Shown: positions 45,899 to 60,887 of the stretch, in pieces
How positions within the stretch are numbered: position 1 is the first letter of the stretch
Layout: every line of letters begins with the position of its first letter
NCBI RefSeq assembly: GCF_027925385.1
Contig: NZ_AP027143.1
Coordinates: 62,001-126,000 of the forward strand
DNA length: 64,000 nucleotides
Reading direction: 5' to 3'
Source of the DNA: Methylocystis iwaonis
GTDB lineage: Bacteria > Pseudomonadota > Alphaproteobacteria > Rhizobiales > Beijerinckiaceae
Position numbers and translations under genes: made by a program
The notes under the pieces: model-generated
The model's database searches: none
What the model saw: the letters and a program-made list of their open reading frames with translations, nothing else
Told to the model about the DNA's origin: nothing

Positions 45899-45965
45899 AC
45901 GCTCGAACAGGCGGTTTCCATTGCGCCCAATGGTCTTGATGCTTTGTATTTTTATGGAGATTTTC

Positions 45966-46296
45966 TCGCCGAGCGATCGGCCAAAACGGCGCGCCGAAGA
46001 ATGTCACGATCGACAAGAGCGGCGCCACACGCTCCAATCGAGAGCTACAATGCAGAGAACGAGTCGGGCATCGAGATCCAGCGGAGGAAAATATCTCAAC
46101 AACATCGTCGAACAGGACCACCGAGCAATCAAGCGGGTTGTGTGGCGGGTGCTGGGGTTCAAATCCTTTCGCTCGGCCGCAGCAACGCTCGCCGGCGTCG
46201 AGCTCATGCACATGATCCGAAAAGGGCAGTTGCAAACGACGGGCAAATTGCGCCCAGCAAAGGCAGTTCTACGCTCTCGGGCGTAAGCCGCGAGAA
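45966..46296 (+). pseudogene. IS6-family transposase remnant A (3' part)
   Basis: The 3' third of an IS6-family transposase gene, recognisable by YLNNIVEQDHRAIKRV, GFKSFRSAAATLAGVELMHM and IRKGQLQTTGKL. Frames shift within it (the MSRSTRA / NAENESGIEIQRRK part is in another frame), the N-terminal domain is missing and no terminal repeat follows. It is closely similar in DNA to remnant B at 60380-60762, same orientation. Similarity stops near 46296, where a soxC-like remnant begins on the other strand. Confidence 0.88.
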
Positions 46297-46445
46297 GCGC
46301 CCGGCTCGGTAATCCAAGGCTCGACGACAAGCGTTTCGCCACGTGCGCGGCCGACGACGCCGAAGCCTCCGGCGGCGGCAAGAAACCAATGTCGATCGAT
46401 GAGGCCGCCGCCCGCCGTGAACTCCGGCTTGTCGCGCTTCTTCAT
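46285..46445 (-). pseudogene. N-terminal remnant resembling SoxC-type sulfite dehydrogenase
   Basis: A leftward frame starting ATG at 46445 gives MKKRDKPEFTAGGGLIDRHW followed by FLAAAGG and, near its end, VVEPWITEPGA. The layout (charged start, GGGLIDR-WFL, short apolar stretch, then a PW...PGA element) resembles the N-terminus of SoxC-type sulfite dehydrogenases. It is cut by IS6 remnant A after about 50 residues, and the reading frame ends in the IS sequence. The family call is tentative. Confidence 0.35.
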
Positions 46446-46678
46446 GAACCCGTCCGCATCAGACGGCTGCGCCCAACGAGGCGCGAACCTAGCTCATTTA
46501 TCTACGCGGTAAGTAGGAAATAGACAAGGAAAAAGGACGGCAGCGGCGCTGCGCGAGGACAAAGCAAGATTCACAAAGGCAAGCATCCGCTCCGTATCCG
46601 GAGACGCGCTCTAGCGTTGGATCGCAGCAGTTGCATCGCCGCGGTTTGAGCTTGACGTTATATTTATACCATAATAGT

Positions 46679-46691
46679 AGTCTTATAGACT
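46679..46691. promoter_or_regulatory. Perfect palindrome upstream of the GlcG/HbpS-like gene
   Basis: AGTCTTATAGACT, 20 bases before the ATG, in an AT-rich island with a TTGACG box at 46652. It may be an operator close to the transcription start. Low AT-rich islands are rare in this window, which makes it stand out. Confidence 0.4.
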
Positions 46692-46710
46692 GCTGGAAGG
46701 GAATAAAAGA

Positions 46711-47256
46711 ATGCGATCGAACCTGCTCTGCGCATTTGCCGTTTATGTCCTCGCGACCGCGCCGGCGCTCGCTCAATCGGCCACGTCGGGACCGGCACAG
46801 GGCGCAGCCGCACCTTCGCAAAGTCCGCCGCCGCCCCCCGCGCGCGGTCCTTCGCTCGAGCTCGCGATCGAGGCGGCGCAAGCGGCGATCGACGCCGGAA
46901 AGGCTGCCGATCAAAAAGTGGCGGTGAGCGTCATCGATTCCTCCGGAGTGCTGAAGGCGGTCCTCGTTTCTGACGGCGTCGGACCCCGCGCGGTGCACAA
47001 CAGCAACTTCAAGGCGCAGGCGGCGCTCGCCTTCAAGAAGACCTCCGGCGAGCTGGCCGAGCAGGTCAAGAACAACAAAACGCTCGCCGATCAGATCGCC
47101 GCGAACCCGAACTATCTCGCGCGCGCGGGCGCTGTTCTCATCAAGGTCAATGACGAGGTTATCGGCGCGATCGGCGTTGGCGGCGCGCGTGGCGCCGACA
47201 AGGATGAACAATATGCGCTCGCGGGTCTGCAACGCGTGCAGCCGCGGCTGAAATAG
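46711..47256 (+). CDS. GlcG/HbpS-like heme-binding-family secreted protein
   Basis: 181 residues. A signal peptide (ending ATAPALA-Q) and a Pro/Ser linker (PSQSPPPPPARG) are followed by a GlcG/HbpS domain: LELAIEAAQAAIDAGKAADQKVAVSVIDSSGVL, then FKAQAALAFKKTSGELAEQV and the glycine-rich GAIGVGGARGADKDEQYALAGL. HbpS-type proteins bind heme or small ligands extracellularly. GGAAGGGA lies 7 bases before the ATG. It stands alone between an IS remnant and an amidase gene, with its own AT-rich promoter region. Confidence 0.85.
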   Translation: MRSNLLCAFAVYVLATAPALAQSATSGPAQGAAAPSQSPPPPPARGPSLELAIEAAQAAIDAGKAADQKVAVSVIDSSGVLKAVLVSDGVGPRAVHNSNFKAQAALAFKKTSGELAEQVKNNKTLADQIAANPNYLARAGAVLIKVNDEVIGAIGVGGARGADKDEQYALAGLQRVQPRLK

Positions 47257-47485
47257 GCTGCGCGCCTTCCCGTGGGCGATGAAATCGCCGACAGGGTTTC
47301 TCGTCGTCAGCTCGGCCGATCATCAGCTCGGCCGAGCAGTGACCCATCACGAACACCTTGCCTCCCTCAATACTTCTTTTTGCACTTTGGTTCCTGAAGG
47401 TTGAACTTGGCTTACACGCCGAGATGGCGTCGCGGAAAGCAATAAAAGCGGCATACAAAAATCGTCCAAGGCCAGGGAGGCAGCC

Positions 47486-48856
47486 ATGTCGCAGGATCTC
47501 ACACAACTGACCGCCTATGAGCTGATCGAGGCGTATCGCACAAAAACGCTTTCCCCAGTGGAGGCGACTATGGCGACGCTGAAGCGCATCGGAGAACTCC
47601 AGCCACATTTCAACGCCTATCGCGCCGTCGGCGCCGATGCTGCGCTCGCGCAAGCAAAGGTCTCGGAAGCGCGCTGGGCGCGCGGCGCGCCGAAAGGTTT
47701 GCTCGACGGCGTGCCGGTGGGCTTCAAAGACCTGCTCAACGTGCAAGGTTTCCCGACGCGCAAGGGCAGCCTTGCGACTCCCGACATCATCCAGCAGGCC
47801 GACTCCCCGCCGGCGGCGCGTCTACGAGAAGCGGGCGCGGTCATTCTCGGGAAAACCCAGACCGCTGAATTCGGCCTCAAGGGCCTCACCGAAACGAAGC
47901 TCGGCGGCGTGACGCCGAACGCCTGGGACCGCCAATATGTGAGCGGCGGCAGCAGCGGCGGCGCGGCGGTCGCAGCGGCATTGGGGCTCGGGCCGTTGCA
48001 AGTCGGCACTGACGGCGGCGGCTCGATCCGTAATCCGGCAGCCGTCAATGGCGTATTCGGCTTCAAGCCGACATTCGGCCGCGTCGCGGGCTATCCGCAC
48101 AATGGCTCGTTGTTCCATATCGGCCCCCTCACGCGGACGGTGACGGACGCCGCACTGCTCCTCAATGTCATTGCGCAGCCGGACGTGCGCGACTGGCAAA
48201 GCCTGCCGAGCGACATTTGCGATTGGAGAGAGAATCTCGACAGCGGCGTGAAAGGTCTGCGCATCGCCTACAGCCGGACGCTCGGCTATGTGAAAGTCGA
48301 TCCCGGCCTCGCCGCCGTCGTCGATCGCGCGGTCGCGCGCCTATCGGAGCTCGGCGCCATCGTGGAAGAGACCGATCCCGGTTTCAGAGATCCGTCGCCG
48401 ATCATCGACGCCATCAATTCCGAGCGCGCGATCAGGCTGCGCAGCGAGATCGGCGTGGCGGGGCTGGATTTGATCGATCCGGGCATCCGCGCGCGCGTTG
48501 AAAAGCTCGAACGTTATACGCTTGCGGAAGTCGTCGAGGCGAATGAGCGCCGCACCGATCTCGCGATCCTCATGCGACGTTTCCACGAGAAATACGATCT
48601 TTTGGTCACGCCCGTGCAGTCGCAGCCCGTCCCGCGCCTCGGGACGCCGCCGCAGACGCCTTTCGCTTTCCCCTTCAACATCACGCAGCAGCCCGGCGCA
48701 TCGATTCCCGCGGGCTTCGACAATAACGGGCTGCCGGTCGGCCTCCATGTCGTCGGCCCGCAATATGGCGACCTCACAGTGCTTCGCCTAGCGCGCGCCT
48801 TCGAGAAGCTACAGCCATTTCCGACGCCGCATCTCGATTCGTTGAGCAAGCTGTAA
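47486..48856 (+). CDS. Amidase (amidase signature family)
   Basis: 456 residues. The Ser-cisSer-Lys triad of the family is visible: Lys in GVPVGFKDLLNVQG, cis-Ser in GGSSGGAAVAAALGLGPLQ, and nucleophile Ser in the same run followed by GTDGGGSIRNPAAVNGVFG. It hydrolyses an amide; related enzymes act on aryl or aliphatic amides, and the substrate is not predictable. Length is normal, no signal peptide. RBS CAGGGAGG lies 6 bases before the ATG. No operon partner is evident. Confidence 0.92.
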   Translation: MSQDLTQLTAYELIEAYRTKTLSPVEATMATLKRIGELQPHFNAYRAVGADAALAQAKVSEARWARGAPKGLLDGVPVGFKDLLNVQGFPTRKGSLATPDIIQQADSPPAARLREAGAVILGKTQTAEFGLKGLTETKLGGVTPNAWDRQYVSGGSSGGAAVAAALGLGPLQVGTDGGGSIRNPAAVNGVFGFKPTFGRVAGYPHNGSLFHIGPLTRTVTDAALLLNVIAQPDVRDWQSLPSDICDWRENLDSGVKGLRIAYSRTLGYVKVDPGLAAVVDRAVARLSELGAIVEETDPGFRDPSPIIDAINSERAIRLRSEIGVAGLDLIDPGIRARVEKLERYTLAEVVEANERRTDLAILMRRFHEKYDLLVTPVQSQPVPRLGTPPQTPFAFPFNITQQPGASIPAGFDNNGLPVGLHVVGPQYGDLTVLRLARAFEKLQPFPTPHLDSLSKL

Positions 48857-48899
48857 TCGCCGTTTTTGAACGGCGTCGGCAAGCTCATCGCCGCTGTAC

Positions 48900-49038
48900 A
48901 GGAGCGACGAGCGAGAGCGTCGAACTCATTTAGTCGATCAGGACTGTACCGGTCGCGCGCGTCAGCTCGACTTCCGCAAAGCAAGGCATACACCCCTTCG
49001 ATGATCCATGTGTCGTCGGAATGATCGGTCCAGCGCAA
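48900..49038 (-). pseudogene. Possible P-loop kinase fragment
   Basis: A leftward frame gives DDTWIIEGVYALLCGSRADA, reminiscent of the central part of small adenylate-kinase-like P-loop proteins (W-I-x-E-G-V-Y). There is no P-loop before it and the frame runs on into antisense of the amidase gene. If real, it is a decayed fragment. Confidence 0.2.
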
Positions 49039-49128
49039 ATGATCGAGATCGTGAATCGGCTGTTGCTGATCATCATGAGACGTGACGCTCCGCTACCTAG
49101 TGCGTGTCACGCCGGCAGCGCCTACGAA

Positions 49129-49569
49129 TTACGCCCCACTCGGAGGGGTGAACGAAAACCGCTTGAGTTCGTCGCGGTCATGCCAGCCGATGGCTCGCCA
49201 AAACGCTAGCCCGGCGCCGTTGTCCGCGAAAACGTCGATGTGAATCTTCTCGATCCCTTCTGCTGCGATGGCGGCGACCGTCCGAGCAACGAGGCCGCGC
49301 GCGACGCCCCGACGCCGGAATTGAGGGCTCACCGATACATGATACAGATAGCCGCGCCTTCCGTCGTGGCCGCCGAGCACGCAGCCCGCAAGCATTCCCT
49401 CTGCATCCGCAACAAAACTCATGCCGGGATTGCGAGCAAGAAATCTCGCGACACCGTCGACGCTATCGGAGCCGCTCATGCCGACGCCCTCTTGCCATAA
49501 CAACGCCTCGACGAGGCTGTCGTAATCGTCGATTGTGAGAAGGCGGAACTGAAAGCCTGCCGAGATCAT
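49129..49569 (-). CDS. GNAT-family N-acetyltransferase
   Basis: About 146 residues. The acetyl-CoA binding motif A is visible as VSVSPQFRRRGVARGLVARTVAAIA, preceded by the beta strand pair GCVLGGHDGRRGYLYHV and followed by FADNGAGLAFWRAIGWHDRDELKRFSF. The acceptor is unknown. The ATG at 49569 starts the fold (FQFRLLTIDDYDSL); the in-frame extension upstream overlaps the end of the HEAT-repeat gene. It may be cotranscribed with that gene. Confidence 0.88.
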   Translation of the reverse strand: MISAGFQFRLLTIDDYDSLVEALLWQEGVGMSGSDSVDGVARFLARNPGMSFVADAEGMLAGCVLGGHDGRRGYLYHVSVSPQFRRRGVARGLVARTVAAIAAEGIEKIHIDVFADNGAGLAFWRAIGWHDRDELKRFSFTPPSGA

Positions 49570-49667
49570 TGGTTTTCGGACGAGCCCTGCACGGTATTGG
49601 CAGTATGCCAAATGTTCAGAGAGCAAGCAAAACCCGGATCGATTATGAAAGTTCGCGGCAAGCCCGA

Positions 49668-50648
49668 TCAACCGCCTTGAAAAGTATCACTTTTGATGAG
49701 GTGTATCGACCAGCGCGCGATCTTGCGCACGTCTGGATCGGGGTCGTCGACCGCGCCGGCAAGATAGGGCAGCGCCTCCGGCCGGCGAATTTCGCCGAGC
49801 GCCGCGGCTGCTTCCTTGCGCAGATTGCTGACGGGATGCGACAGCAACCCGCCGAGCGCGGGGATGGCGTCCGCTGTTGAAAGCCGCCCCAGGGCGCTTG
49901 CGGCCTTGAGCGCGACTTGCCAAGCGTCGTCCGATAGGGCGTCGATCAGCGCGCGCTCGGCCCCCGCCGCGCGGAGCTTCCCAGCAAGAACCGCCGCGGC
50001 CTCGCGCACTTGCCAATGCCCATCGGCAAGACCCGAGAAGAGCGCGTCGATCACCGCATCGGCGGGCGCGAAGGCGAGCGCCGACAGCGCCGCGCGCCTC
50101 ACATCGACATCAGGGTCTGTCGCCGCCCCGAGCAAAGCCGGCAGCGCGTCGGCGCGCTTGAGGTAGGCGAGCGCGCCGATCGCCTCGCGCCGCACATGCG
50201 GGTCGGAATCGGCAAGCGCGTCGATCGCCACGGGAAAGGTCGCTCCGACGCGCAGATCGCGCAGCCCGCGCCAGACGGCGGCGCGCACGTCCGCGCGTGG
50301 ATGGCCGATAAGCGCGAGCAGCGGCGTGGCCGCCTCGGGCGCGCGCAATTCGCACAGGCTGGCGCCGGCGGCAGCCGCGACGGACGAGTCCGCGTCGAGC
50401 AGAGCGTTTGCGAGCGCCTGCGCGACGGCAGGGCCGTCGAACTGCTCCAACCCCGCCGCCGCCGCGAGGCGCACGCCGGGATCGGGATCGCTCAGGGCGC
50501 GGATGAGAAGCGCTTCTCCATTCGCCTCGGCGCTTTCGGCAAGTTCGAGCATCGCCATGCGGCGCTCATCCGCGTCCGAACTTTTGAAACGCGCCTCGAT
50601 GTCTTCGATATCGAGGCTCTGATCCTCGAAAATGCTGTCCCGCGCCAT
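49668..50648 (-). CDS. HEAT-repeat protein of the AprA-like module
   Basis: About 326 residues made almost wholly of HEAT-type helical repeats (for example SDPDPGVRLAAAAGLEQF, GHPRADVRAAVWRGLRDL and ATDPDVDVRRAALSALAFA), roughly eight units of about 31 residues. Such alpha-solenoids are scaffolds, and related proteins act as lyases or chaperones in cofactor assembly. The ATG at 50648 is preferred because the in-frame extension upstream is the shadow of the ferredoxin gene. It starts 5 bases after that gene's stop, so it belongs to the leftward flavoprotein-ferredoxin operon. Confidence 0.88.
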   Translation of the reverse strand: MARDSIFEDQSLDIEDIEARFKSSDADERRMAMLELAESAEANGEALLIRALSDPDPGVRLAAAAGLEQFDGPAVAQALANALLDADSSVAAAAGASLCELRAPEAATPLLALIGHPRADVRAAVWRGLRDLRVGATFPVAIDALADSDPHVRREAIGALAYLKRADALPALLGAATDPDVDVRRAALSALAFAPADAVIDALFSGLADGHWQVREAAAVLAGKLRAAGAERALIDALSDDAWQVALKAASALGRLSTADAIPALGGLLSHPVSNLRKEAAAALGEIRRPEALPYLAGAVDDPDPDVRKIARWSIHLIKSDTFQGG

Positions 50649-50653
50649 GACAA

Positions 50654-50887
50654 TCACCGCAGCAGATAGGGGATCGAAACGCTCACCGCCTTGGTCGGGC
50701 AGTCGAGTTCGCATGGCAGGCAATACCAGCACTCGTCGTAACGCATATGCGCTTTGCCGGTCTCCGGATTGATCCACAGCACATCGAGCGGGCAGACGTC
50801 GATGCAAACCGTGCAGCCCTTGTCTGCAATGCACTTCTCCGCATCGATGTTGACCGGAAACTCGGAAGGGTTCTCCGCGAAGGACAT
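50654..50887 (-). CDS. AprB-like ferredoxin, two [4Fe-4S] clusters
   Basis: About 77 residues. Two cluster motifs are visible, CIADKGCTVCIDVCP and CWYCLPCELDCP, arranged as in the beta subunit of adenylylsulfate reductase and related ferredoxins. The protein lacks the long C-terminal tail of true AprB. It starts 7 bases after the AprA-like flavoprotein stop and is probably its electron-transfer partner. The ATG at 50887 is preferred; the longer frame overlaps the flavoprotein end. Confidence 0.88.
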   Translation of the reverse strand: MSFAENPSEFPVNIDAEKCIADKGCTVCIDVCPLDVLWINPETGKAHMRYDECWYCLPCELDCPTKAVSVSIPYLLR

Positions 50888-50894
50888 CGGCGCC

Positions 50895-52631
50895 TCAACT
50901 GTGAGCGGGAATGCGAAGACGATGATAGGCGTCGCGCTCTGTCGTCTCGACTGGCACCACGTAGGGGTCGACCGGCCGCTTGCGGCAGGAGATGCCGCCG
51001 CGCTCATTCTTGTAGAGCTGGGTATGACAAAACCAGCTCTCGTCGTCTGTCTCAGGATGGTCGAGGCGATGGTGGTAGAGGCCCCAACGACTCTCGGTGC
51101 GGTAGAGTGAAGCGGCTGCGGCCATTTCCGCGCAGTCCAGAATCGAATGGACCTCGAGCGCGCGCATCAGCTCGTGCGCATCGCGCGCGGCGAGGCGCGG
51201 TAGGTCGGCGCGAAGTTCAGCGAAGCGCTTCTGCGCAATTTCATATTTGCGCGTCACTTTTGGCGGCTGCAGATAATCGTTGACGAAGCGCCGGATCTTG
51301 TATTCCACCTGATTGGGCGGCAGTCCGGTCTCGTTGCGCAATGGCGCGCGCGTTCGTTCCCGCTCGGCCTCCACCTGTGCGGCGCCATAGTCCGCAAGAT
51401 CGACCTCATCTGCAAAGCTCGCGGAATGCTCACCGGCGATCGCGCCGTTGACGAAGGCGCCGAGCATGTAATTGTGCGGCACGCTCGCCATGTCGCCCGC
51501 CGCATAGAGGCCCGGGACGGTCGTGCGGGCAAACTCGTCGACCCAGACGCCCGACGCGCTGTGTCCGGAGCAAAAGCCGATTTCCGAAATATGCATCTCG
51601 ACCATGTCTTTGCGGTAATTGGTTTTCCGACCCTTGTGAAACAGCCCGCGCGAGGGCCTTTCCACCTTGTGCAAGATGTTCTCGACCTCCGCGATGGTCT
51701 CCGGCGCAAGGTGATCGAACTTGAGAAAGACGGGACCTCCACCGCCCTGGAGTTCGCGATAGAACTCCAGCATCATCTGCCCCGACCAATAGTCGCATTC
51801 GATGAAGCGCGCGCCGCTGGCGTTCGCCGTATAGGCGCCAAAGGGCCCACCGACATAGGCGCAGGCCGGACCGTTATAGTCCTTGATCAACGGATTGATC
51901 TGGAAGCATTCGAGATTGGTGAGCTCCGCGCCCGCATGAAACGCCATTGCGTAACCGTCGCCCGAATTGGCGGGGTTCTCGTACGTTCCCCACAGATAGC
52001 CAGAGGCTGGAAGGCCTAGACGCCCGGCTGCGCCGGCCGCGAGAATGACCGCCTTGGCGCGAATGACGAGAATTTCAGCGCTCCGGCTGTTGATCGCGAT
52101 GGCCCCTGCAATGCGGCCGTCGGCGCCGGTGAGCAGGCGCGTCGCCATGTAGCGGTTCGAGATCAGCACCTGCGCCTTGCGCAATTGCCGGTACAGGACC
52201 TTCTTGATCGACGCGCCCTCCGGCATCGGCAGCACGTAGGTTCCAAGATGATGAACCTTTTTGATGTCGTAGTCGCCATTCTCGTCCTTGAGGAATTTCA
52301 CCCCCCATTGGTCGAGTTCACGGATCATGTCGAAGGAGCGCTCAGCGTAGGCAAGCAGCGCCTTCTGATAGACGATTCCGTCATTGGCGATGGTGATTTC
52401 CCGTACATATTGCTCGGGCGTGGCGAAGCCCGGCACGACGGCGTTGTTCAATCCGTCCATGCCGACGGCGATCGCCCCTGACCGCTTCACATTGGCTTTT
52501 TCGAGCAAAACGACTTTCAGCGCAGGGTTCGCAGTCTTGGCCTTGTAGGCTGCGAGGGGCCCCGCAGTCCCTCCGCCGATCACCAGAACATCGGCTTCGA
52601 AAATGGTCTCGGCGTCGTCGTTGGCCGTCAC
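50895..52631 (-). CDS. AprA-like / fumarate reductase-type flavoprotein
   Basis: About 578 residues. The FAD-binding domain opens with ADVLVIGGGTAGPLAAYKA and carries EKANVKRSGAIAVGMDGLNN, a pattern close to AprA (alpha subunit of adenylylsulfate reductase). Later elements include the GFCSGHSASGVWV segment, GLYAAGDMASVPHNYMLGAFVNGAIAGE (C-terminal FAD contact) and a helical C-terminal domain. It lacks a signal peptide. With the ferredoxin and HEAT-repeat gene it forms an operon divergent from an ABC importer. The true reaction is unknown: APS/sulfite chemistry is one possibility. The GTG at 52631 has GGGAG upstream; ATG 52652 is an alternative. Confidence 0.85.
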   Translation of the reverse strand: MTANDDAETIFEADVLVIGGGTAGPLAAYKAKTANPALKVVLLEKANVKRSGAIAVGMDGLNNAVVPGFATPEQYVREITIANDGIVYQKALLAYAERSFDMIRELDQWGVKFLKDENGDYDIKKVHHLGTYVLPMPEGASIKKVLYRQLRKAQVLISNRYMATRLLTGADGRIAGAIAINSRSAEILVIRAKAVILAAGAAGRLGLPASGYLWGTYENPANSGDGYAMAFHAGAELTNLECFQINPLIKDYNGPACAYVGGPFGAYTANASGARFIECDYWSGQMMLEFYRELQGGGGPVFLKFDHLAPETIAEVENILHKVERPSRGLFHKGRKTNYRKDMVEMHISEIGFCSGHSASGVWVDEFARTTVPGLYAAGDMASVPHNYMLGAFVNGAIAGEHSASFADEVDLADYGAAQVEAERERTRAPLRNETGLPPNQVEYKIRRFVNDYLQPPKVTRKYEIAQKRFAELRADLPRLAARDAHELMRALEVHSILDCAEMAAAASLYRTESRWGLYHHRLDHPETDDESWFCHTQLYKNERGGISCRKRPVDPYVVPVETTERDAYHRLRIPAHS

Positions 52632-52714
52632 GCTGCACTCCCGCTGGCGCATCAGCCAAGCCGGCGGACGCGATCTTGTTGCTACTCTAAGGCATGTTAG
52701 TCTATATTACAGGT

Positions 52715-53524
52715 ATGATTTCATCGAGTCCATCGGCAGTCCGCGCCGGACACGTCGAACTGCGCAATCTCACGGTCGCTTATCGTGGCGCGGCGGCGTT
52801 GCGAGATTTCGGGATCGCGGCGGAGCCGGGGCAATTCATCTGCTTTCTCGGCCCTTCGGGCTGTGGCAAATCCACCGCCTTGAATGCCATCGCCGGCTTT
52901 CTTCCCCCAACCTCCGGTGAGGTTCTTGTCGATGGCGCGCCGATCCGCGGGCCGGGCGCCGACCGTGGCGTCGTCTTCCAGCACTATTCGCTGTTTCCAT
53001 GGAAGACGGCCGTGGCGAACATCGCCTTTGGTCTGCGCATGCGAGGGATCGGAAGCGCCGAAGCGCGACGGGCGGCGTACGAGTGGATCGATCGCGTCGG
53101 GCTATCCGGTTTCGCCGACCGCTATCCCCACACGCTCTCGGGCGGCATGCAGCAACGCGTCGCGATCGCGCGTGCATTGATCAACCGGCCCTCGGTCTTG
53201 TTGATGGACGAGCCATTCGGCGCGCTCGACGCGCAGGCGCGCGCGCTCATGCAGGAGTTGCTGCTCGATCTCTGGCGAGACGTCGGCGCCACTATATTCT
53301 TTGTCACCCATGATGTGGACGAAGCGATCTATCTGGCGGACAGAGTGATTGTCTTCAGCGCCGCGCCGGGGCGCGTCATACTCGATTTGCCCATCGACTT
53401 GCCGAGTCCCCGCCCCCCGGACATCTCCGCGAGCGGCCCCTTCAATGCGGCGAAGTTGCAGTGCCTCGAGCTGATTCGTCGCGAGGGTCGTCGGATCTTC
53501 GACCTGTCGGAGTCCGCTGCGTGA
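52715..53524 (+). CDS. ABC transporter ATP-binding protein, NrtD/SsuB/TauB type
   Basis: About 269 residues. Walker A is GPSGCGKST, the Q loop FQHYSLFPWKT, the signature LSGGMQQRVAIARAL and Walker B VLLMDEPFGALD, followed by the H loop VTHDVDEAIYLADRVIV. This subgroup serves nitrate, sulfonate, taurine or bicarbonate importers. The start is uncertain: ATG at 52715 or at 52694, since neither has a clear ribosome site. It is divergent from the AprA-like gene and coupled to the permease gene by a GTGA or nearby start. Confidence 0.9.
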   Translation: MISSSPSAVRAGHVELRNLTVAYRGAAALRDFGIAAEPGQFICFLGPSGCGKSTALNAIAGFLPPTSGEVLVDGAPIRGPGADRGVVFQHYSLFPWKTAVANIAFGLRMRGIGSAEARRAAYEWIDRVGLSGFADRYPHTLSGGMQQRVAIARALINRPSVLLMDEPFGALDAQARALMQELLLDLWRDVGATIFFVTHDVDEAIYLADRVIVFSAAPGRVILDLPIDLPSPRPPDISASGPFNAAKLQCLELIRREGRRIFDLSESAA

Positions 53525-53529
53525 CCGTC

Positions 53530-54366
53530 ATGCAAGTCATACGCAGGGGAATCCGAGCCGATGAGCTTCGTCCCGCTGGTTCGAAAACGAATATCACCCC
53601 GGCGTGGCGCTGGAGCGTGAGAATTTTTTCTCTCGTGGCGCTTCTCGCGGCCTGGCAATATGCCTCCCTGTCGAAGGCGCACTTCTCCTTCCTCACCTTC
53701 GCCTTCACGCCCGCTCCGACGCAGGTGTTCGACTCGCTCCTCGAGCTTTCGCATTCGGGAAGGCTGCTGTCGCATGTCGAGGCCAGCCTCGCGCGCGTTC
53801 TCGCAGGCTATGCTCTCGCCTCTTTATTTGGAATCGCTCTCGGCGGCCTCGTTGCGCGCAGGCCCTTTTTTGAGGACGCGCTGCTGACGCCTCTCGAACT
53901 CCTGCGGCCGATTCCCGCGGTCGCCTGGATACCTCTTGCGATCCTGATGTTCCCGTCGTCCGAAGCGTCGATGGTTTTCATCACCTTCATGGGCGCGCTG
54001 TTCCCAATCTTGCTCAACACGATTCATGGCGTGCGGGACATTGACGCCCGGCTCATCGCATCCGCGCGCTCACTGGGCGCCGGCGGCGTCACTGTCGTCG
54101 TCGAAGTGGTGCTGCCAGGCGCCTTGCCGAGCATATTCACCGGCCTCGCGATCGGCATGGGAACGAGTTGGTTCTGCCTCGTGACCGCAGAGATGATTTC
54201 GGGCCAGTTCGGCGTCGGCTATTTCACCTGGGAATCCTACACCCTCCAGAATTACCCAGATATCGTCGCGGGCATGGCGATCATCGGCGTTCTCGGTTTC
54301 CTGAGCAGCGCCATCGTCAGACGGATCGGCTGCGCGCTCACACCATGGCGGGAAGAAAGCCAGTGA
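53530..54366 (+). CDS. ABC transporter permease, SsuC/TauC type
   Basis: About 278 residues with six hydrophobic helices (for example FSLVALLAAWQYASL and GYALASLFGIALGGLVA). The EAA loop contacting the ATPase is visible as SARSLGAGGVTVVVEVVLPGALPSIFTGL. It matches permeases of the nitrate/sulfonate/taurine/bicarbonate class. The ATG at 53530 is in frame with a GTG at 53521 that would overlap the ATPase stop. It is the middle gene of the importer operon. Confidence 0.9.
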   Translation: MQVIRRGIRADELRPAGSKTNITPAWRWSVRIFSLVALLAAWQYASLSKAHFSFLTFAFTPAPTQVFDSLLELSHSGRLLSHVEASLARVLAGYALASLFGIALGGLVARRPFFEDALLTPLELLRPIPAVAWIPLAILMFPSSEASMVFITFMGALFPILLNTIHGVRDIDARLIASARSLGAGGVTVVVEVVLPGALPSIFTGLAIGMGTSWFCLVTAEMISGQFGVGYFTWESYTLQNYPDIVAGMAIIGVLGFLSSAIVRRIGCALTPWREESQ

Positions 54367-54399
54367 TCGCGTCGCCTCGAAAGCACGGGTGAAATTGAA

Positions 54400-55797
54400 A
54401 TGCGACTGCTTCGAATCTGCGGCATTCTTTCATGGATCCTTGCGACGCCGATGGGCGCGGCTGCGGAAACAATTCGCATCGCGATCGGAACGCAGGATAC
54501 GACGATCAATTGCGCCGCGGGCGGACTACTGATTCGCGAACTCGATCTTCTGCGGCGCCATCTCCCGCATGACGGCAAGTATAAGGACGCGACATACGAC
54601 ATTCAGTGGAAGAATTTCTCGAGCGGCGCGCCGATCACGAATGAAATGGTCGCGGGCAAGCTCGATGTCGGCGTGATGGCCGACTTCCCCGGCGCGCTGA
54701 ACGGCGTCGCCTTCAAGAAGGCCGGCAAAAGCAGCCGGTTCATCACGGTGCTGTCCGGCAGCATCCGCGGAAGCGGCAATGGCGTCGTCGTGCCGATCGC
54801 TTCGCCGGCGCAATCGCTCGCTGAGTTGAAGGGCAAGACGATCTCCGTGCCCTTTGCTTCGACAGCGCATGGCATGCTGCTGCGCGCTGTCGCTGATCTC
54901 GGCTGGGATCCGGGGCGCGACGTGAAGATCATCGCGCAGGCTCCCGAGGTCGCAGGTTCGGCGCTGCAAAGCGGGCAGATCGACGCGCACGCCGACTTCG
55001 TGCCTTTCGCGGAACTTTTTCCTGCGCGCGGCTTTGCCCGCAAGATCTTCGATGGCGCCCAGGCGGGCGTTCCGACTTTCCACGGCGCTCTCGTGGACTC
55101 TGATTACGCCGAGAAATATCCAGAGCTTGTCGTCGCCTATCTCCGCGCCGTCATCGACGCGAACAGGCTGTTGGCCGGCGAGCCGGAAAAATACAGCGAG
55201 TTGATCGCCAAGGCCACCGGCATCGACGCCCCTGTCGTCTATCTCTTTCATGGCCCACTCGGACTTCAGACACGCGACCTGACGTGGAAGAAGGAGTATC
55301 GACAGGATCTCGCGACCTCGATCGAAACGCTCAAGCTGTTGAAGCGCGCCGACACCGGCCTCGATCTCGAAACATTCATCGACGATAGATTTCTCCGCGC
55401 CGCTTTCAAGGCGTCTGGACTCGACTACGACACTGAGCTTGCGCACTACGCCTCGACGACGAGTGAGCTGATGACCGAAGTGAGCCTTTCCGCAGAGCTC
55501 TGGTTGGAGGGCGAGTCCAAAGTCCACCGCTATGCATCGCCGGACGCGGCGTTCGCCGCTCTGACCCAGTTCGAAACGCAAGGCAAGAAAATCCGCGCCG
55601 CCTATGCGCAGGACCGCAGCAACGGCATCAAGATATTTGCCAACCGCGCCTGGTATGTCGCCGCGTCATCAGGGCGGCTCGATGCGTTTTTCTCGAAAGC
55701 CGACGCGGAATCCTTCGCCGCGAAGTCGGGCGGAAAGGTGCAGGACTTCGACGCGATCCTTCAAAGTAAACCGAGCCCAACTCGGAGGCCAGGATGA
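54400..55797 (+). CDS. ABC substrate-binding protein with NosL-like C-terminal tail
   Basis: 465 residues. A signal peptide ends near MGAAA-ET. Residues about 25-330 are a SsuA/TauA/NrtA-type binding protein (TIRIAIGTQDTTINCAAGGLL, MVAGKLDVGVMADFPGALNGV, EVAGSALQSGQIDAHADFVPF). The extra last 110 residues end with a segment resembling the copper-chaperone NosL (ANRAWYVAASSGRLDAFFSK, then FAAKSGGKVQDFDAIL). Typical family members are about 330 residues, so the tail is an addition. The two-domain arrangement suggests a metal-linked or otherwise unusual ligand. It overlaps the following GNAT gene by 4 bases. Confidence 0.82.
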   Translation: MRLLRICGILSWILATPMGAAAETIRIAIGTQDTTINCAAGGLLIRELDLLRRHLPHDGKYKDATYDIQWKNFSSGAPITNEMVAGKLDVGVMADFPGALNGVAFKKAGKSSRFITVLSGSIRGSGNGVVVPIASPAQSLAELKGKTISVPFASTAHGMLLRAVADLGWDPGRDVKIIAQAPEVAGSALQSGQIDAHADFVPFAELFPARGFARKIFDGAQAGVPTFHGALVDSDYAEKYPELVVAYLRAVIDANRLLAGEPEKYSELIAKATGIDAPVVYLFHGPLGLQTRDLTWKKEYRQDLATSIETLKLLKRADTGLDLETFIDDRFLRAAFKASGLDYDTELAHYASTTSELMTEVSLSAELWLEGESKVHRYASPDAAFAALTQFETQGKKIRAAYAQDRSNGIKIFANRAWYVAASSGRLDAFFSKADAESFAAKSGGKVQDFDAILQSKPSPTRRPG

Positions 55798-56384
55798 GCC
55801 TGCAAAGCATTCCGACGCTTCGTGGCCCGGATATGCTATTGCGAGAATTTCGTGCAGGTGATGCGCGGGAGCGTTTCGAGCTCGGAAACGACCCCGCAAT
55901 CATGCGAATGTTTGGAGTGGACCCGACTGACATCCCGGCGCTGACAGAGGCCGGCGTCCGCCGCTGGGTCGATGATTTGGCAAAGCATCCCCACGCCTGG
56001 GCGATCGAACACGAAGGGAGCTGGCTCGGCGAAATCAGGCTCGACAAAATGAACAAGCAGGATCGTCGCGCGCAATTGGCGATCGGGCTCTATGACCCAC
56101 ACAAGCTTGGGCGCGGTCTCGGCAGACAGGCAATACTTATCCTCCTTCGCTACGCCTTTGACGCGCTCGCCTTGCATCGCATCAGCGTGCGCGTCGTTTC
56201 CTACAACGCGCGAGCTATCGCCTGTTACCGCGCATGCGGCTTTGTAGAGGAAGGACGGGAACGCGAAGCGGCGCGCGTCGGCGACGAATGGCGCGATGAT
56301 GTGATCATGGGACTTCTCGCGCACGAGTTCGATAGTTCGAAATCATTAAGCAAGTTCTCGGGGTCTGTCGCAAATTTTGCGTGA
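55794..56384 (+). CDS. RimJ/RimL-type GNAT acetyltransferase, C-terminus altered by an IS end
   Basis: 196 residues. It has the family opening LRGPDMLLREFRAGDARERFELGND, a motif A region (IGLYDPHKLGRGLGRQAILILLRYAFDAL) and the C-terminal NARAIACYRACGFVEEGREREAARVGDEWRDDVIMGLL. Such enzymes acetylate an N-terminal Ser/Ala or a small substrate. The ATG overlaps the binding-protein stop (ATGA). The final residues (SGSVANFA) are read from an IS6-type terminal repeat at 56361, so the natural end of the protein has been replaced. Whether it still works is unknown. Confidence 0.85.
   Translation: MSLQSIPTLRGPDMLLREFRAGDARERFELGNDPAIMRMFGVDPTDIPALTEAGVRRWVDDLAKHPHAWAIEHEGSWLGEIRLDKMNKQDRRAQLAIGLYDPHKLGRGLGRQAILILLRYAFDALALHRISVRVVSYNARAIACYRACGFVEEGREREAARVGDEWRDDVIMGLLAHEFDSSKSLSKFSGSVANFA
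56361..56383. repeat. IS6-type terminal inverted repeat, left end
   Basis: 23 bases beginning GGGGTCTGTCGCAAATTTTG match, in inverse orientation, the right end at 60799-60821 with 21 of 23 positions identical. Sequence further inside (CAGCGGGCCTCTCG) is shared as well. It lies inside the last codons of the GNAT gene. The two ends bound a 4.46-kb block. Confidence 0.85.
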
Positions 56385-56495
56385 GTGCGAGACGCGCGAC
56401 AGCGGGCCTCTCGAGGCTTGAACCGCATAGAGAAACCACAAAATCATATCCCTATCTCAGTCGTCCTGAACTCCCCCGGGCCCCAGCAGCGCCAT

Positions 56496-57212
56496 TCAGT
56501 CCAGATGTGCGACGACAAGAAGACGCTTAATCTCGCCTGATTCAAAGGCACGCAAAAAGGCTGCGTAATCCTTGAAAACCACGCAACCGTTCGAGTCGCC
56601 TTTGGGCCCGAGCATATAAGTATGGGCGAGCAGGCCGGTGCGACCGAAGGTATTTGCGTCGCCAACAGGAACGAGACGTAGGGCCCGGACGCCATGAAAG
56701 GGCTGTTCCCTCAGCGTAATTTCGTAGGTGCTAGGCGGCGTTGCGCCGCGCATAGGTTCGTGAACAAAGCGAGGGTCATCAAGTCGCGCGCCGAGCCCTG
56801 AATGCGCCTCCAAGCGCTGGCCGTTCGGCAGATAAACTGTATGTGCGGCGATATCATATACGGCAGTGGCGAAGCCGAACCGTCTCAAAAGAAACGAATC
56901 GCCCTCTGGGGGTGCAATTTTGAGATTTGCCCGGCTGACCATGCGGTTGGATGCATCGGTCTGGTCAGATACAGCTCTTTCGGACGCGATACATCGGTCC
57001 GCCATTTTCACTGGGTATCCGAGGTCCCTCCACAGCTTGCAGCCATGGTCAGGAGCGAAGTGGGCGAGGAGGCCGAGCGTGAAAACGGCGCATGCGGCAA
57101 TGGCGAGTCCTATTGAAGTTGCCGTGCGAAAGCGAACCTCGAACGCCTGTATTCCTGTCGCGAGTAAAACCAGAACGGCGGTGATCAAGAGACAAGAGGA
57201 TAAATATTCCAT
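56496..57212 (-). CDS. Tlde1/DUF2778-like L,D-transpeptidase with membrane anchor
   Basis: 238 residues. Two hydrophobic helices at the start (CLLITAVLVLLATGIQAFEV and SIGLAIAACAVFTLGLLAHF) are followed by a periplasmic domain. It has NGQRLEAHSGLG, GATPPSTYEITLREQPFHG and the catalytic His/Cys pair in LAHTYMLGPKGDSNGCVVF. This matches DUF2778, the fold of the peptidoglycan-targeting Tlde1 effectors. The anchored version may act on the cell's own wall or as an immunity-linked factor. No secretion genes lie nearby. It lies within the block bounded by IS6-type ends. Confidence 0.75.
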   Translation of the reverse strand: MEYLSSCLLITAVLVLLATGIQAFEVRFRTATSIGLAIAACAVFTLGLLAHFAPDHGCKLWRDLGYPVKMADRCIASERAVSDQTDASNRMVSRANLKIAPPEGDSFLLRRFGFATAVYDIAAHTVYLPNGQRLEAHSGLGARLDDPRFVHEPMRGATPPSTYEITLREQPFHGVRALRLVPVGDANTFGRTGLLAHTYMLGPKGDSNGCVVFKDYAAFLRAFESGEIKRLLVVAHLD

Positions 57213-57479
57213 CAGAGCTCACTTTAAAGCAGATGAATTTGGGCAAGCCTTGGTCGGCTCATGTTGCAACAGGCGGGAAAATATGATGGGTGAAGTTGCA
57301 ACCAATCGGCGTCGACAGCCGTCTCCCCAAGTTTCATTTGAGAAGTGACATCCATCATGTGATGGGGTGGTGCAAGCGGCTTGTCGTCTCGATCTCAACG
57401 GGTGTCGGGCTATCATTTTTTTGTGCCAATTGGTTCGACCGCTGGACGCGGGCACGCTTGAAAATAGTCTACGGTCGGG

Positions 57480-57905
57480 TCAACGCAGATGCGAAGGCGC
57501 CTGGGGATTGTTGTCCGGATTGGTGTCGTGTTTCGAAAGCGAAACAATCAGCCCTTGTGCGACCAGCGGCGCAAGATCCGCCTCGAGTGCGTCGGCGCGG
57601 GCCTTGTCGTATACCTCGTCGCCATTGACATAGACTGCGAAGGACAGGGAATGCTTGGCCTTTTTCGACGGATCCTCGATCGTGGCCTTCGTCCATTTGT
57701 AGAGCGGGAAAGCATCAACGCTGCTCCGTTCCGCCTGCGTGACGTAATTGACGAAGGCGTCGTAGGTGCTGATGGCCGTCGCGCTATGACGGGCGAGAGC
57801 TTCTGCGATTGGCCTGAAGGCGGGATCATCCGGACGATGGCGCGCGCGGTCGGGCTGCTGCTCGTCGAGCCTGAAACGGATTTGATAGGCCCAGTGGGCG
57901 CTCAT
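57480..57905 (-). CDS. Conserved-looking cytoplasmic protein of unknown function
   Basis: About 141 residues, no signal peptide. It shows ordered alternation of helices and strands (HWAYQIRFRLDEQQPDRARH, HSLSFAVYVNGDEVYDKARA) and ends with a charged tail. No family is recognised. AAGGAC lies 6 bases before the ATG at 57905. It is downstream of the sterol desaturase gene in the fae operon, with a gap of 25 bases, so it is likely cotranscribed. Confidence 0.65.
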   Translation of the reverse strand: MSAHWAYQIRFRLDEQQPDRARHRPDDPAFRPIAEALARHSATAISTYDAFVNYVTQAERSSVDAFPLYKWTKATIEDPSKKAKHSLSFAVYVNGDEVYDKARADALEADLAPLVAQGLIVSLSKHDTNPDNNPQAPSHLR

Positions 57906-57930
57906 GTTGAGTCCTTTCGAAAGATTGCCC

Positions 57931-58815
57931 TCATGCGCGACTCTGCTCGACCGGGGCGCGAGACGGTGTGCGGCTGAACCAGTAAGAGGCGCTGTTGTAG
58001 TCGGATTGCCGCCGGCGCGATTGGAACATCGGCACGAAGAGCTGCACCCACCAGCGCTCCCTTCCGTATTCAAGGTCGTTCTCGACACCGGACGCCGGCG
58101 GATAGCGACGGGTGATCAGCGCCGTTCCAAACAAGACGTCCCAGAAGAAGAGTAGGTTTCCGAAGTTGCCGCGGTAATGACCGACGCCGTCCGCCTCGCT
58201 GAGCGCGTGATGGGCGAAATGCGTCGCCGGGGTGGAGATTGTCCGCTCCACGATCCAGGCGATGGGCGACAGACGAGGCGACCGATACAGATATTGATCC
58301 CAGCGCAATTCGCTGTGCGCGGCCGTGACCACGAGGAGCTTCACCAGCCCGTAGGCGACGGCGAAGGGTCCGGCGCCGAGAGAGACGAAGAAGGCGTTCG
58401 TCCAGATGTTCGGCATGAGGAAGGAATAGAGGAAGCCGTTCCGGAAGGTCATGCGTGCACCCATATAGGGCGCCGAATGATGGGCGCGGTGCCAAAGCCA
58501 AGTGTATTTGGTGTGGCCCAGCCGATGCCACCAATATTGAACCATGTCCTCCCCGATCAGATAAACGGGGATCCAGGCCACCCAGCTCAAGTGGCTGAAC
58601 CTGTCCCGCCATTCCGGGACCAGCGCCGCGGCGCCGCCTAGGACCAGCGCGAAAACCGCCGGCCGGCTCGCCAGTGGAAAGGCGATCGAAGCGAGATCGA
58701 GCGTCGTTTCGTCTCTGTCGGCTTTCGACAGATCGAGCCGCCCGGCGGCGGCCTCGGCCACGCTGAGCAGCACAAGGATCACGAGCGCAGAGTGGTTGAG
58801 CAATGTGACGAGCAA
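57931..58815 (-). CDS. Sterol desaturase/fatty acid hydroxylase-family membrane enzyme
   Basis: 294 residues with four or five membrane segments. The di-iron histidine boxes HRLGH, HRAHH and HFAHH are complete. The family includes C-4/C-5 sterol oxidases, fatty acid and carotenoid hydroxylases; lipid hydroxylation or desaturation is the likely reaction. Position directly after the fae genes (33 bases) suggests coexpression with C1 metabolism, which is unusual. The substrate cannot be predicted. Confidence 0.88.
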   Translation of the reverse strand: MLVTLLNHSALVILVLLSVAEAAAGRLDLSKADRDETTLDLASIAFPLASRPAVFALVLGGAAALVPEWRDRFSHLSWVAWIPVYLIGEDMVQYWWHRLGHTKYTWLWHRAHHSAPYMGARMTFRNGFLYSFLMPNIWTNAFFVSLGAGPFAVAYGLVKLLVVTAAHSELRWDQYLYRSPRLSPIAWIVERTISTPATHFAHHALSEADGVGHYRGNFGNLLFFWDVLFGTALITRRYPPASGVENDLEYGRERWWVQLFVPMFQSRRRQSDYNSASYWFSRTPSRAPVEQSRA

Positions 58816-58847
58816 GACCTGCCGCCTTTCCGCTGGATGTCGCCGAC

Positions 58848-59410
58848 TCAGCCCGGCGCGAAGGGATGCTTGGCGGTGACGCGGGCCGAGAGGACAGATT
58901 TCGCCGACGGATCGCCCGCGAGCGCCCGCGCGATGGCCTCCTTCGTGGCGCGATAGTTGAAGTCCTGGATTTTCCTGTCGTCGGCGGCGTCCCAGTGAAT
59001 GAAGACTCCGACAGAGATGAAGAGGTCTTCCGCCTGCTCGACCGGGATGATTCCCTCGGCGACCGAGTCCGCGACAGCCTTGGCGACGCCGTGCTGCGCC
59101 GGTCCGAACAGCTGGATCGCCTGACGGGCATTCTTGATGGTCACCTTGTTAAACAGGATTGTGTAGGGCTTGACGAGAAGGTTCGGCGCAATGACCGCGA
59201 GCAAGGTGGTGAAGCCGGGCTTATTGTTGACGAGCGCATTGGCGAAGGCCTTTTCGGCGGCGCTGCCGCGCGGGCCGATCAGGAGATGATATGCGCGACC
59301 TCATTGCCGTCGCCAACGAGGGCCTCGCCGACGCCAAGCTTCGAAAGCCCGGCGCTTTGCTGCGTCGTTTTGGGCGCGAAAATGCTGAGAAACTTGGTTA
59401 GAAGCGACAT
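58848..59410 (-). pseudogene. Second fae-like gene, broken by a one-base deletion
   Basis: A paralogue of formaldehyde-activating enzyme with a 24-residue N-terminal extension (MSLLTKFLSIFAPK...). The first frame reads to GNEVAHIIS and stops, while the rest (from GPRGSAAE onward) lies in the next frame, with [20 protein letters not shown] and [19 protein letters not shown]. Adding one G near 59287 restores the [10 protein letters not shown] expected from the intact copy. Either it is decaying or one base was lost in sequencing. It lies 111 bases after fae. Confidence 0.88.
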
Positions 59411-59434
59411 CAAGACCTCTACTTGGGCGAGTTG

Positions 59435-59500
59435 GCTGCGGGTGCGGGAAACGCGGTCGCACCCGCAGCTTTCCCCGGGAGGACGGCAAGGCCGTCTCCC
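59435..59500. repeat. Two hairpins between the fae genes
   Basis: A perfect 12-base inverted repeat (GCTGCGGGTGCG at 59435-59446, partner 59458-59469, 11-base loop) is followed by a 10-bp stem with one bulge at 59477-59500. Neither has a T tract on the transcribed strand. They may stabilise fae mRNA or reduce expression of the downstream genes. Confidence 0.6.
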
Positions 59501-59521
59501 CAGCGGTTTGCGTTCGCTGGA

Positions 59522-60031
59522 TCAGTTGGCCGCGAACGGATGCTTCGCTTCGTTGCGCTTCGCGACGACTTCGGAAGCCTTCGGCTCGCCGGCGACCGCG
59601 CGCGCGATGGCCTCTTTCGTGGCCTGGTAGTTGTAGTCCTGGATCTTCTTGTCGTCATTTGCTTCCCAATGGATGAACACGCCCACCGAGATGAAAAGGT
59701 CGTCCGCCTCTTCGAGAGGAATGACGCCTTCGGCGACAGAGTCGGCGACGGCCTTGGCGACGCCATGCTGCGCCGGACCAAAGAGCTGCACCGCCTGCTT
59801 TGCGCCCTTGATGGTGACCTTGTTAAAAAGAATGGTGTTTGGCTTCGCGAGGAGATTGGGTGCGATCACGGCGAGCAGTGTCGTGAAGCCATCCTTGTTG
59901 TTGACGAGCGCATTGGCGAAGGCGAGCTCCGCCGCGGAGCCGCGCGGTCCAATCAGCAGATCGATGTGAGCAACTTCGTTCCCTTCGCCCACGAGGGACT
60001 CGCCGACGAGAAGCTTGTTGATTTTAGCCAT
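59522..60031 (-). CDS. fae: Formaldehyde-activating enzyme
   Basis: 169 residues. It catalyses condensation of formaldehyde with tetrahydromethanopterin, the entry into the H4MPT oxidation pathway of methylotrophs. Signatures are [20 protein letters not shown] (with the catalytic His), [19 protein letters not shown] and [19 protein letters not shown]. Length is that of canonical Fae. AAAGGA lies 8 bases before the ATG. It heads a leftward operon with a broken paralogue, a sterol desaturase-family gene and a small unknown gene. Its promoter is visible upstream. Confidence 0.96.
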
Positions 60032-60075
60032 GTAACAATCCTTTTGACGCGCCCGCCCCTCCGCGGGCCGTCATA

Positions 60076-60103
60076 ATCATACCTAATTGGTAGAGATTAG
60101 CAA
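60076..60103 (-). promoter_or_regulatory. Promoter of the fae operon
   Basis: On the minus strand TTGCTA (60098-60103) is followed after 16 bases by TATGAT (60076-60081), 4/6 and 5/6 matches to the -35 and -10 consensus. Transcription would start near 60069, about 38 bases before the fae ATG. Confidence 0.6.
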
Positions 60104-60339
60104 CGGTGTCGACCAAGTAAAATTCATCCGTCCCGACGCACGTAGTCGTCGGCGCCGCCCCGATCGTCACCAATAGCGCCATGGCCTGCCGTAGACGCCG
60201 GGCCCCTGGGCGGGGCGGAATAGGAGGCGGCCCGCCGGTCGGCGGCGCGATCAAGGTCGGTGTCGAGCAGACACTTGGAAAAGCCGTCCGTTCTTGGCTG
60301 AAAGCCCTAAGACCGGTAGCGGGTTTCGTCCGCCGCGCG

Positions 60340-60762: not shown

Positions 60763-60798
60763 GCCGCGAGAGGCCCGCTGCCCTGCCTCTCGAGGCTT

Positions 60799-60821
60799 AC
60801 GCAAAATTTACGACAGAACCC
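60799..60821. repeat. IS6-type terminal inverted repeat, right end
   Basis: This is the end of the element carrying remnant B; its reverse complement matches 56361-56383 at 21 of 23 positions. No matching 8-base target duplication is seen between the outer flanks of the two ends. Confidence 0.85.
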
Positions 60822-60887
60822 AAAATTTCCTGTGCTTTTTCGGTCGCCGCGAGTTCCGCGCTCATGCTGGAAGCCCGCCATCAATGA

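Follow-up and report, generated by a model that had tools for sequence, protein, structure and literature searches.

A conserved importer and AprA-related flavoprotein gene cluster in Methylocystis, with a binding pocket pointing to a sulfonate-type anion

We have analyzed a cluster of six genes in a 64,000-nucleotide stretch of Methylocystis iwaonis DNA (contig NZ_AP027143.1, positions 62,001 to 126,000), which is referred to here as the window. Genes for a flavoprotein of the AprA/SdhA superfamily, a short AprB-like ferredoxin and a HEAT-repeat protein run leftward; the ATPase, permease and substrate-binding protein (SBP) of an ATP-binding cassette (ABC) importer run rightward. All six were found where a first-pass annotation of the window had placed them, with intact reading frames (Table 1). 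The gap between the divergent flavoprotein and ATPase genes is 41 to 83 bases, depending on start choice, and 83 bases in the Methylocystis iwaonis annotation. That first-pass annotation had proposed an uncharacterised uptake-and-conversion system, a view that our analysis supports: as judged from sequence comparisons, the six genes and their kin are one functional unit. The system is conserved, misleadingly named and undescribed in the literature searched, which was mostly outside subscription journals and held no paper on the cluster; the accessible portions of PMC8557817 and PMC4501297 are likewise silent.

The evidence for a single unit comes from two sets of loci. A profile scan with the binding protein, using one genome per species, gave 471 confirmed stretches, and the best 80 were kept as loci. 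The flavoprotein gene is close by in 77 of these 80, which is beyond chance; in the remaining three (L005, L057 and L083) the contigs end before reaching it. The second set consists of 65 flavoprotein loci: 39 from proteobacterial genomes, 20 from plasmid records and six taken over from the binding-protein set. These loci are not independent, since several come from single genera and six (L006-L010 and L066) were fetched by the binding protein; some of their contigs end inside the cluster. A 5-kb stretch (L193) was left out, and four records with empty annotation tables (H7, H33, H36 and H46) were still counted by their DNA. Counts were made by tblastn, apart from an NfnAB-like protein that was counted by blastp on the output of a codon-usage gene caller. 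By these counts the ferredoxin is found in all 65 loci, the HEAT-repeat protein in 63, the ATPase in 59, the binding protein in 57 and the permease in 55. The binding-protein matches in L170, L196 and L205 have just 25-27% identity; without these three and the six that came from the binding-protein set, it is found in 48 of 59 loci. The two loci that lack a HEAT match are that of Tsukamurella (L172), where the repeats are fused to the flavoprotein C-terminus, and L195, where the contig breaks off next to the ferredoxin gene. The ABC genes are thus co-conserved with the flavoprotein, whichever of the two proteins is used as the starting point. Other partners are DUF971 (48 loci), FdxA (24), ferredoxin-NADP reductase (FNR; 19) and Mrp (4), together with regulators of the Crp type (25), the GntR type (24 and 10, for two query groups) and the LysR type (4). 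YeiH (8), an amidase (6), TauE (5), SCO1, TlpA and a MerT-like protein (3 each) and PCuAC (2) are less frequent.

Table 1. Genes of the cluster and genes adjoining it (coordinates are those of the window; aa, amino acids)
Feature	Position	Strand	Remarks
HEAT-repeat protein	49668..50648	-	326 aa from the ATG used in homologues; mechanical open reading frame longer; Pfam HEAT_2 160 bits
Short AprB-like ferredoxin	50654..50887	-	77 aa; 8 Cys spaced as two [4Fe-4S] clusters
AprA/SdhA-superfamily flavoprotein, family PRK08275/NF006131	50895..52652	-	585 aa; GTG start at 52631 gives 578 aa
ABC transporter ATPase, TauB/SsuB/NrtC type	52694..53524	+	Alternative start 52715; PRK11248 TauB 255.6 bits, cut-off 357 not reached
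ABC transporter permease, TauC/SsuC/SaoP type	53461..54366	+	PF00528 75 bits; SaoP 151.9 bits, cut-off 295 not reached
NMT1-like substrate-binding protein with C-terminal NosL-like domain (about residues 361-460)	54400..55797	+	Pfam and NCBIfam scores, fold, pocket alignment
GNAT acetyltransferase, possible accessory gene	49129..49671	-	Directly downstream of the HEAT gene; Pfam
GNAT acetyltransferase, possible accessory gene	55794..56384	+	4-base overlap with the end of the binding-protein gene; Pfam
Amidase NF004815/PRK06169	47486..48856	+	Adjoins the cluster; NCBIfam match

The cluster extends over Proteobacteria, cyanobacteria and actinobacteria and occurs in several gene orders. In Pseudomonas all genes point the same way (GntR regulator, flavoprotein, ferredoxin, binding protein, permease, ATPase, HEAT, with DUF971 added in many loci), whereas in Methylocystis the two halves of the cluster are divergent. 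Methylobacterium radiotolerans has DUF971, flavoprotein, ferredoxin, HEAT, Crp, SBP, permease, ATPase, FdxA and FNR genes in a row. Since gene content is kept while the order is rearranged, common function is favoured over shared descent of a block. At the Nostoc locus (L170:11692-14873) the flavoprotein and ferredoxin genes are separated by genes for two HAD hydrolases, a methyltransferase, a GNAT protein and a VOC protein. Of 398 genomes that were sampled across the phylum, 21 have a member of the flavoprotein family scoring above the curated cut-off. A class-level search at a loose expected value (E) gave some superfamily match in 254 of 289 genomes, four of the 289 being above the family cut-off; at the order level the figure was 26 of 297, and when the search was centred on each of two other genomes it was 11 and 10 of 200, with most genomes in common.

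By its score (1043.9 bits; cut-off 587) the flavoprotein clearly falls in NF006131/PRK08275, an uncharacterised NCBIfam family which, like PRK13800, bears the name 'fumarate reductase/succinate dehydrogenase flavoprotein subunit'. It does not reach the cut-off of TIGR02061 aprA (175.1 bits against 641.75; five AprA loci score 967-1001 in the same scan) or that of TIGR01812 for sdhA/frdA (152.3 against 567.3), and it is far under that of the nadB family. Its nearest solved relative is the alpha subunit of the Methanothermococcus 3'-phosphoadenylylsulfate (PAPS) reductase MtPAPSR (8a8o, 249 bits), followed by AprA (185 bits). The active site was compared in an alignment of 28 proteins, 17 of them PRK08275 members. 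In Archaeoglobus fulgidus AprA numbering we take Arg265 and the arginine of the TCLRNH loop (Arg317) to bind adenylylsulfate (APS), and His398 to be the active-site histidine. The Arg265 position is Leu (window Leu255) in all 17 family members; in the nine members shown the TCLRNH loop is absent, and the DYWSGQMM stretch aligned with it has no Arg. The histidine aligns with window His364 and does not discriminate, because succinate dehydrogenase (SDH) has it too. Escherichia coli FrdA His232 and Arg390 are the substrate residues of the SDH, fumarate reductase and aspartate oxidase flavoproteins. The former is Asn (window Asn253) in 17 of 17 members; the latter is Met396 (within PHNYM) in the nine shown, and this Met is invariant in 14 sequences including that of the window. 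As both the AprA arginines and the SDH/fumarate reductase substrate residues are absent, the database name is misleading. The motifs of the family are KxVHH or QVHR, GxYVLPMP, FQINPLIKDYNGPACAYV, DYWSGQM, GHSASG and VPHNYM.

A maximum-likelihood tree of the flavoproteins, which is unrooted and has several long branches, separates AprA and MtPAPSR from the rest by a branch whose length is 4.87 changes per column and whose support is 100/100, and a second long, fully supported branch leads to the SDH/NadB group. The 17 PRK08275 rows make up one side of a branch in 46% of 200 bootstrap trees, so the tree does not establish them as a clade; on the best tree the PRK08275 label has to change twice, with the AprA/MtPAPSR and SDH groups joining at different points. 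Scores, active-site residues and tree agree in putting the flavoprotein outside AprA, SDH and NadB, the outcome on which the first-pass interpretation hung, and its separation from AprA/MtPAPSR and from SDH/NadB is supported at the level of sequence. A PF02910 search of the window's genome gave three proteins, with no AprA among them: the flavoprotein itself, an L-aspartate oxidase and a longer match that is SdhA by score. An AlphaFold model of the flavoprotein was poor (mean predicted local distance difference test score 50.5, from 14 sequences) and was not used.

The pair of flavoprotein and ferredoxin resembles AprBA in its superfamily, its 8-Cys ferredoxin partner and the conserved histidine, and differs in the missing APS-binding arginines and in the 77-residue ferredoxin. 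The latter scores 27.1 bits against the AprB family TIGR02060 (cut-off 135.65); it has the two-cluster Cys set but not the long C-terminal tail of AprB. The claim that sat and qmo/aprM are not linked to the cluster stood: none was recognised nearby, either among 20 window proteins scanned, which are not all of its genes, or by name in the annotated tables of other records. MtPAPSR is the best-scoring solved structure and likewise pairs an alpha subunit that binds flavin adenine dinucleotide (FAD) and belongs to this superfamily with a ferredoxin subunit that has two [4Fe-4S] clusters. It keeps the AprA-type Arg (ALRVKD) where this family has Leu, and is far away on the tree. The portion of PMC10322725 available describes an assimilatory use of MtPAPSR in Methanothermococcus thermolithotrophicus and mentions no ABC transporter, HEAT or DUF971 partner.

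The HEAT-repeat protein of the window matches the HEAT region of PRK13800. The HEAT and DUF971 genes overlap in Acinetobacter and Paraburkholderia records. In three cyanobacterial plasmids it is an Mrp/NBP35 gene, instead of DUF971, that overlaps or abuts the HEAT gene, and in Nostoc an Mrp/NBP35 gene follows closely behind it. Two of the cyanobacterial Mrp/NBP35 proteins were confirmed as NUBPL-type iron-transfer ATPases. From this we infer that HEAT and DUF971/Mrp act as scaffold and iron-sulfur maturation factors, assembling or holding the enzyme. The window's genome carries DUF971 and FdxA on another contig, unlinked to the cluster; these conserved partners, and the NAD(P)H:ferredoxin proteins, were invisible to the first-pass annotation.

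The importer falls in the NrtABC/SsuABC superfamily, with an ntrCD match of 217.5 bits. The binding protein scores 115.4 bits against TIGR01728 (cut-off 163.5) and 87.2 against TIGR01729 (cut-off 304.25). Among NCBIfam families the permease matches SaoP best, and SaoA ranks second for the ATPase, both under cut-off, and the likeness to Sao rests on NCBIfam names. The closest solved binding proteins are taurine and alkanesulfonate binders, both by sequence and by Foldseek on weak coordinates: the AlphaFold model of the binding protein has a mean of 58.3 and is better around the tail than elsewhere, and its match to TauA/SsuA is backed by sequence. According to the part of PMC6906117 available, TauA contacts the sulfonate through Gln30 and through main-chain amides at Gly61, Gly79 and Thr132; its contacts with the amine are Glu106, Thr132 and Asp205. 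These positions were followed in an alignment of 35 binding proteins of the family with E. coli K-12 TauA and SsuA; a CmpA/NrtA control was an N-terminal piece that gave no useful alignment. Gln30 is kept in 34 of the 35, the other sequence starting after that position, and Gly61 in all 35. The Gly79 position is Gly or Ala and the Thr132 position Thr or Ala. In every one of the 35, Glu106 is replaced by Asn, Trp176 by Phe and Asp205 by His, so that the residues for the taurine amine are replaced. A sulfonate-type anion site in a pocket that is otherwise unlike therefore points to a sulfonate-type anion other than taurine as the predicted ligand, with weak contrast to other SBPs. The cluster thus shares with TauABC/SsuABC its three transporter families and the sulfonate-contacting Gln and Gly; it differs in scores under the family cut-offs, in the replaced amine residues, in the added NosL-like domain and in pairing the importer with a flavin/iron-sulfur enzyme, not with TauD or SsuD.

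Some neighbouring genes also relate to sulfur. In 40 proteobacterial genomes with the cluster, which were searched for YeiH (E limit 1e-20) and TauE, six of 36 YeiH-family matches lie less than 10 kb from the flavoprotein gene, against 0.16 expected; counting three same-genus copies once leaves four near ones, with a Poisson probability of 2.6e-5. On three cyanobacterial plasmids YeiH and TauE/SafE genes are near the flavoprotein gene. The distance between a TauE/SafE gene and the cluster genes is 1 to 4 kb in Leptolyngbya, two Pseudanabaena and Aquabacterium; in Acinetobacter it is 6 kb. In Nostoc, metX and an O-acetylhomoserine sulfhydrylase gene are situated just beyond the cluster copy.

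The reading that we favour, and hold with about even confidence, is that the cluster is one unit which imports a small anion of sulfonate type, either R-SO3- or something that closely mimics it, and then reduces or cleaves it inside the cell. The ABC transporter would take up the anion, and the flavoenzyme/ferredoxin pair would reduce or cleave it, sulfite being the likely product, which could be assimilated or, where a YeiH-type exporter is present, exported. Electrons would pass from NAD(P)H through FNR or an NfnAB-like protein to FdxA, then to the two-cluster ferredoxin, FAD and substrate. Of the sulfur or metal-linked compound suggested in the first-pass annotation, the sulfur part gains from the binding pocket and the YeiH enrichment, and the metal part loses by the lack of conserved Cys or Met in the binding-protein tail and the restriction of copper chaperones to 3 of 65 loci.

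A number of observations weigh against this interpretation. The ABC proteins are under the cut-off of every named transporter family listed. Gln occurs at the Gln30 position in one of four other complete NMT1-like SBPs, none of which has a tested ligand; two of these contrast proteins are annotated as sulfonate SBPs, one with the Gln and one without, so the residue is an imperfect marker. The YeiH test was made after the pattern had been noticed, three of the six near copies come from one genus, none of the six reaches the curated YeiH cut-off, and one of them (in genome G914) is listed with an internal stop codon. In the genome of the window itself, the YeiH search at E 1e-20 found no match. 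TauE/SafE matches are found in all 40 cluster genomes, and among the matches listed none is within 10 kb of the flavoprotein gene. Finally, an attack by FAD-N5, as in AprA, would have to work without the AprA arginines.

The direction of electron flow bears on one of the alternatives. In M. radiotolerans the seven-iron ferredoxin FdxA encoded at the cluster scores 157.2 bits (cut-off 135) and the reductase 170.8 (cut-off 390). Six of the 65 loci, in Acidithiobacillus caldus and five other proteobacterial records, have near or in the cluster a gene for an NfnAB/glutamate-synthase-beta-like protein of 1153-1194 aa; all six have FdxA and no FNR match. PRK06567 was the best match, with its cut-off not reached, of the two such proteins scanned. 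That one ferredoxin, FdxA, occurs with either of two kinds of NAD(P)H:ferredoxin module suggests that the flavoenzyme consumes NAD(P)H-derived electrons, both modules being reversible in principle. That reversibility of FNR- and NfnAB-type proteins, and the likeness of the superfamily to SDH, would also fit a dehydrogenase that oxidises the imported compound and passes electrons through FdxA to NADP+. We consider this unlikely: in aerobes such ferredoxin-NADP reductases usually serve as a source of electrons, and no quinone-linked module (QmoABC or AprM) is named in the annotated tables.

The tail of the binding protein raises another alternative. Its match to Pfam NosL (28.1 bits; cut-off 24) and its fold, which Foldseek aligns with NosL 7og7 (TM score 0.60 by target length, E 3.7e-5, 28% identity), agree that the extra NosL-like domain described earlier is real. 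PF05573 is matched by 14 of 16 aligned binding proteins at a loose limit of E up to 1; the tail of the cyanobacterium Leptolyngbya scores 29.2 bits, that of Acinetobacter is under cut-off, and that of Tsukamurella has no Pfam match. The copper(I) ligands of NosL are Cys and Met. The window's tail contains no Cys, and the tail region of the 16 aligned proteins has no invariant Cys or Met; Cys is present in two of nine tails displayed. The tail thus has its fold in common with the copper chaperone NosL, and differs from it in being without Cys and fused to a periplasmic binding protein. Because no Cys or Met is conserved, a copper role is unlikely, and docking to the permease is our guess. Import of copper, mercury or a similar metal or organometal complex, which the flavoenzyme would reduce, is nevertheless a reading to which the NosL fold (shared, as we assume, with MerB) lends something, as do the Sao matches of permease and ATPase and the three loci, out of 65, that have genes for SCO1, TlpA and a membrane protein weakly resembling MerT, two of them with PCuAC as well. 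The case is weak and the reading improbable, given the composition of the tail, the confinement of copper chaperones to these three loci, a MerT match of 16.9 bits against a cut-off of 32.9, and the sulfonate-binding residues that are kept. The three loci themselves (L165:16508-17224, L166:2913-3629 and L167:16709-17317) have, between permease and ATPase, a gene for a membrane protein that contains a CCATP motif; one copy is weakly MerT-like, SCO1 genes follow in all three, and PCuAC is present in L165 and L166.

An importer of the NrtABC/SsuABC superfamily could also carry another anion, such as nitrate, cyanate or thiocyanate, to be reduced as a nitrogen or carbon source, and the window does contain nitrite/sulfite-reductase-type and molybdopterin oxidoreductase genes at 24344-30104. 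These are, however, more than 19 kb from the cluster, the annotated neighbourhood tables of other records name neither a nitrate nor a nitrite reductase, the closest solved binding proteins bind taurine and alkanesulfonates, and the pocket residues also speak against it, so that we hold this to be very improbable. A true APS or PAPS reductase of assimilatory sulfate reduction, served by a sulfate or sulfate ester importer, is likewise very improbable despite 8a8o being the closest solved relative, in view of the Arg265 to Leu replacement, the TCLRNH loop missing from the nine members shown, the long branch to AprA and MtPAPSR, and the lack of any sat or APS-kinase gene named in the annotated tables.

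Within the reading of sulfonate uptake and reduction, a narrower and distinctly tentative proposal, drawn from the sequence relationships, is a ferredoxin-dependent, oxygen-independent reductive desulfonation, in which an AprBA-related FAD/iron-sulfur enzyme would split an organosulfonate to sulfite with low-potential electrons.

An 18-kb stretch around the cluster aligns over 94% of its extent, at 97.9% identity, with a Methylocystis iwaonis SD4 plasmid on which the same gene order is annotated, and the contig carrying the window may be a plasmid. Short matches to 44000-62000 occur in other Methylocystis plasmids, one of them under an IS6 transposase. As the flavoprotein has no match at E 1e-120 in G455, the one other genome listed for the same genus, the cluster looks accessory. 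The GNAT genes that flank it are found at both corresponding places in the M. iwaonis annotation. The left one is present, outside the window's genome and among the binding-protein loci, only in L006 (Methylocystis sp. Sn-Cys), which has the right one as well. An amidase about 50% identical to that of the window is near the cluster in Nostoc edaphicum, together with two GNAT genes, and in L157. The GNAT and amidase genes may be a pointer to N-acetylated intermediates or detoxification.

Elsewhere in the window, a nitrite/sulfite-reductase-type flavoprotein (24344-27040), a molybdopterin oxidoreductase with a BFD domain (27399-30104) and a protein kinase/PP2C fusion (31382-33085) are encoded in what appears to be a nitrate assimilation cluster, of which the kinase/phosphatase gene is an unusual member. 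A very long FecR-domain/TPR protein (1227 aa; 7302-10985) adjoins a CHASE2/guanylate-cyclase-domain gene (5431-7380). Two open reading frames of 610 and 521 aa (38478-40310 and 19338-20903) have no Pfam match at E 1e-10 and may be spurious antisense frames.

The active site of this flavoprotein family contradicts its annotation as fumarate reductase or succinate dehydrogenase. The sulfonate-cleaving enzymes known are mono- and dioxygenases, lyases and glycyl-radical enzymes. If the proposed desulfonation is true, it would differ from all of these, and would occur in aerobes as diverse as methanotrophs, Pseudomonas, cyanobacteria and actinobacteria. If the sulfonate reading is right, a common way of using organosulfur compounds has been overlooked, and a further functional branch of the AprA/SdhA superfamily would become directly testable, with an electron chain, an importer and maturation factors proposed from synteny.

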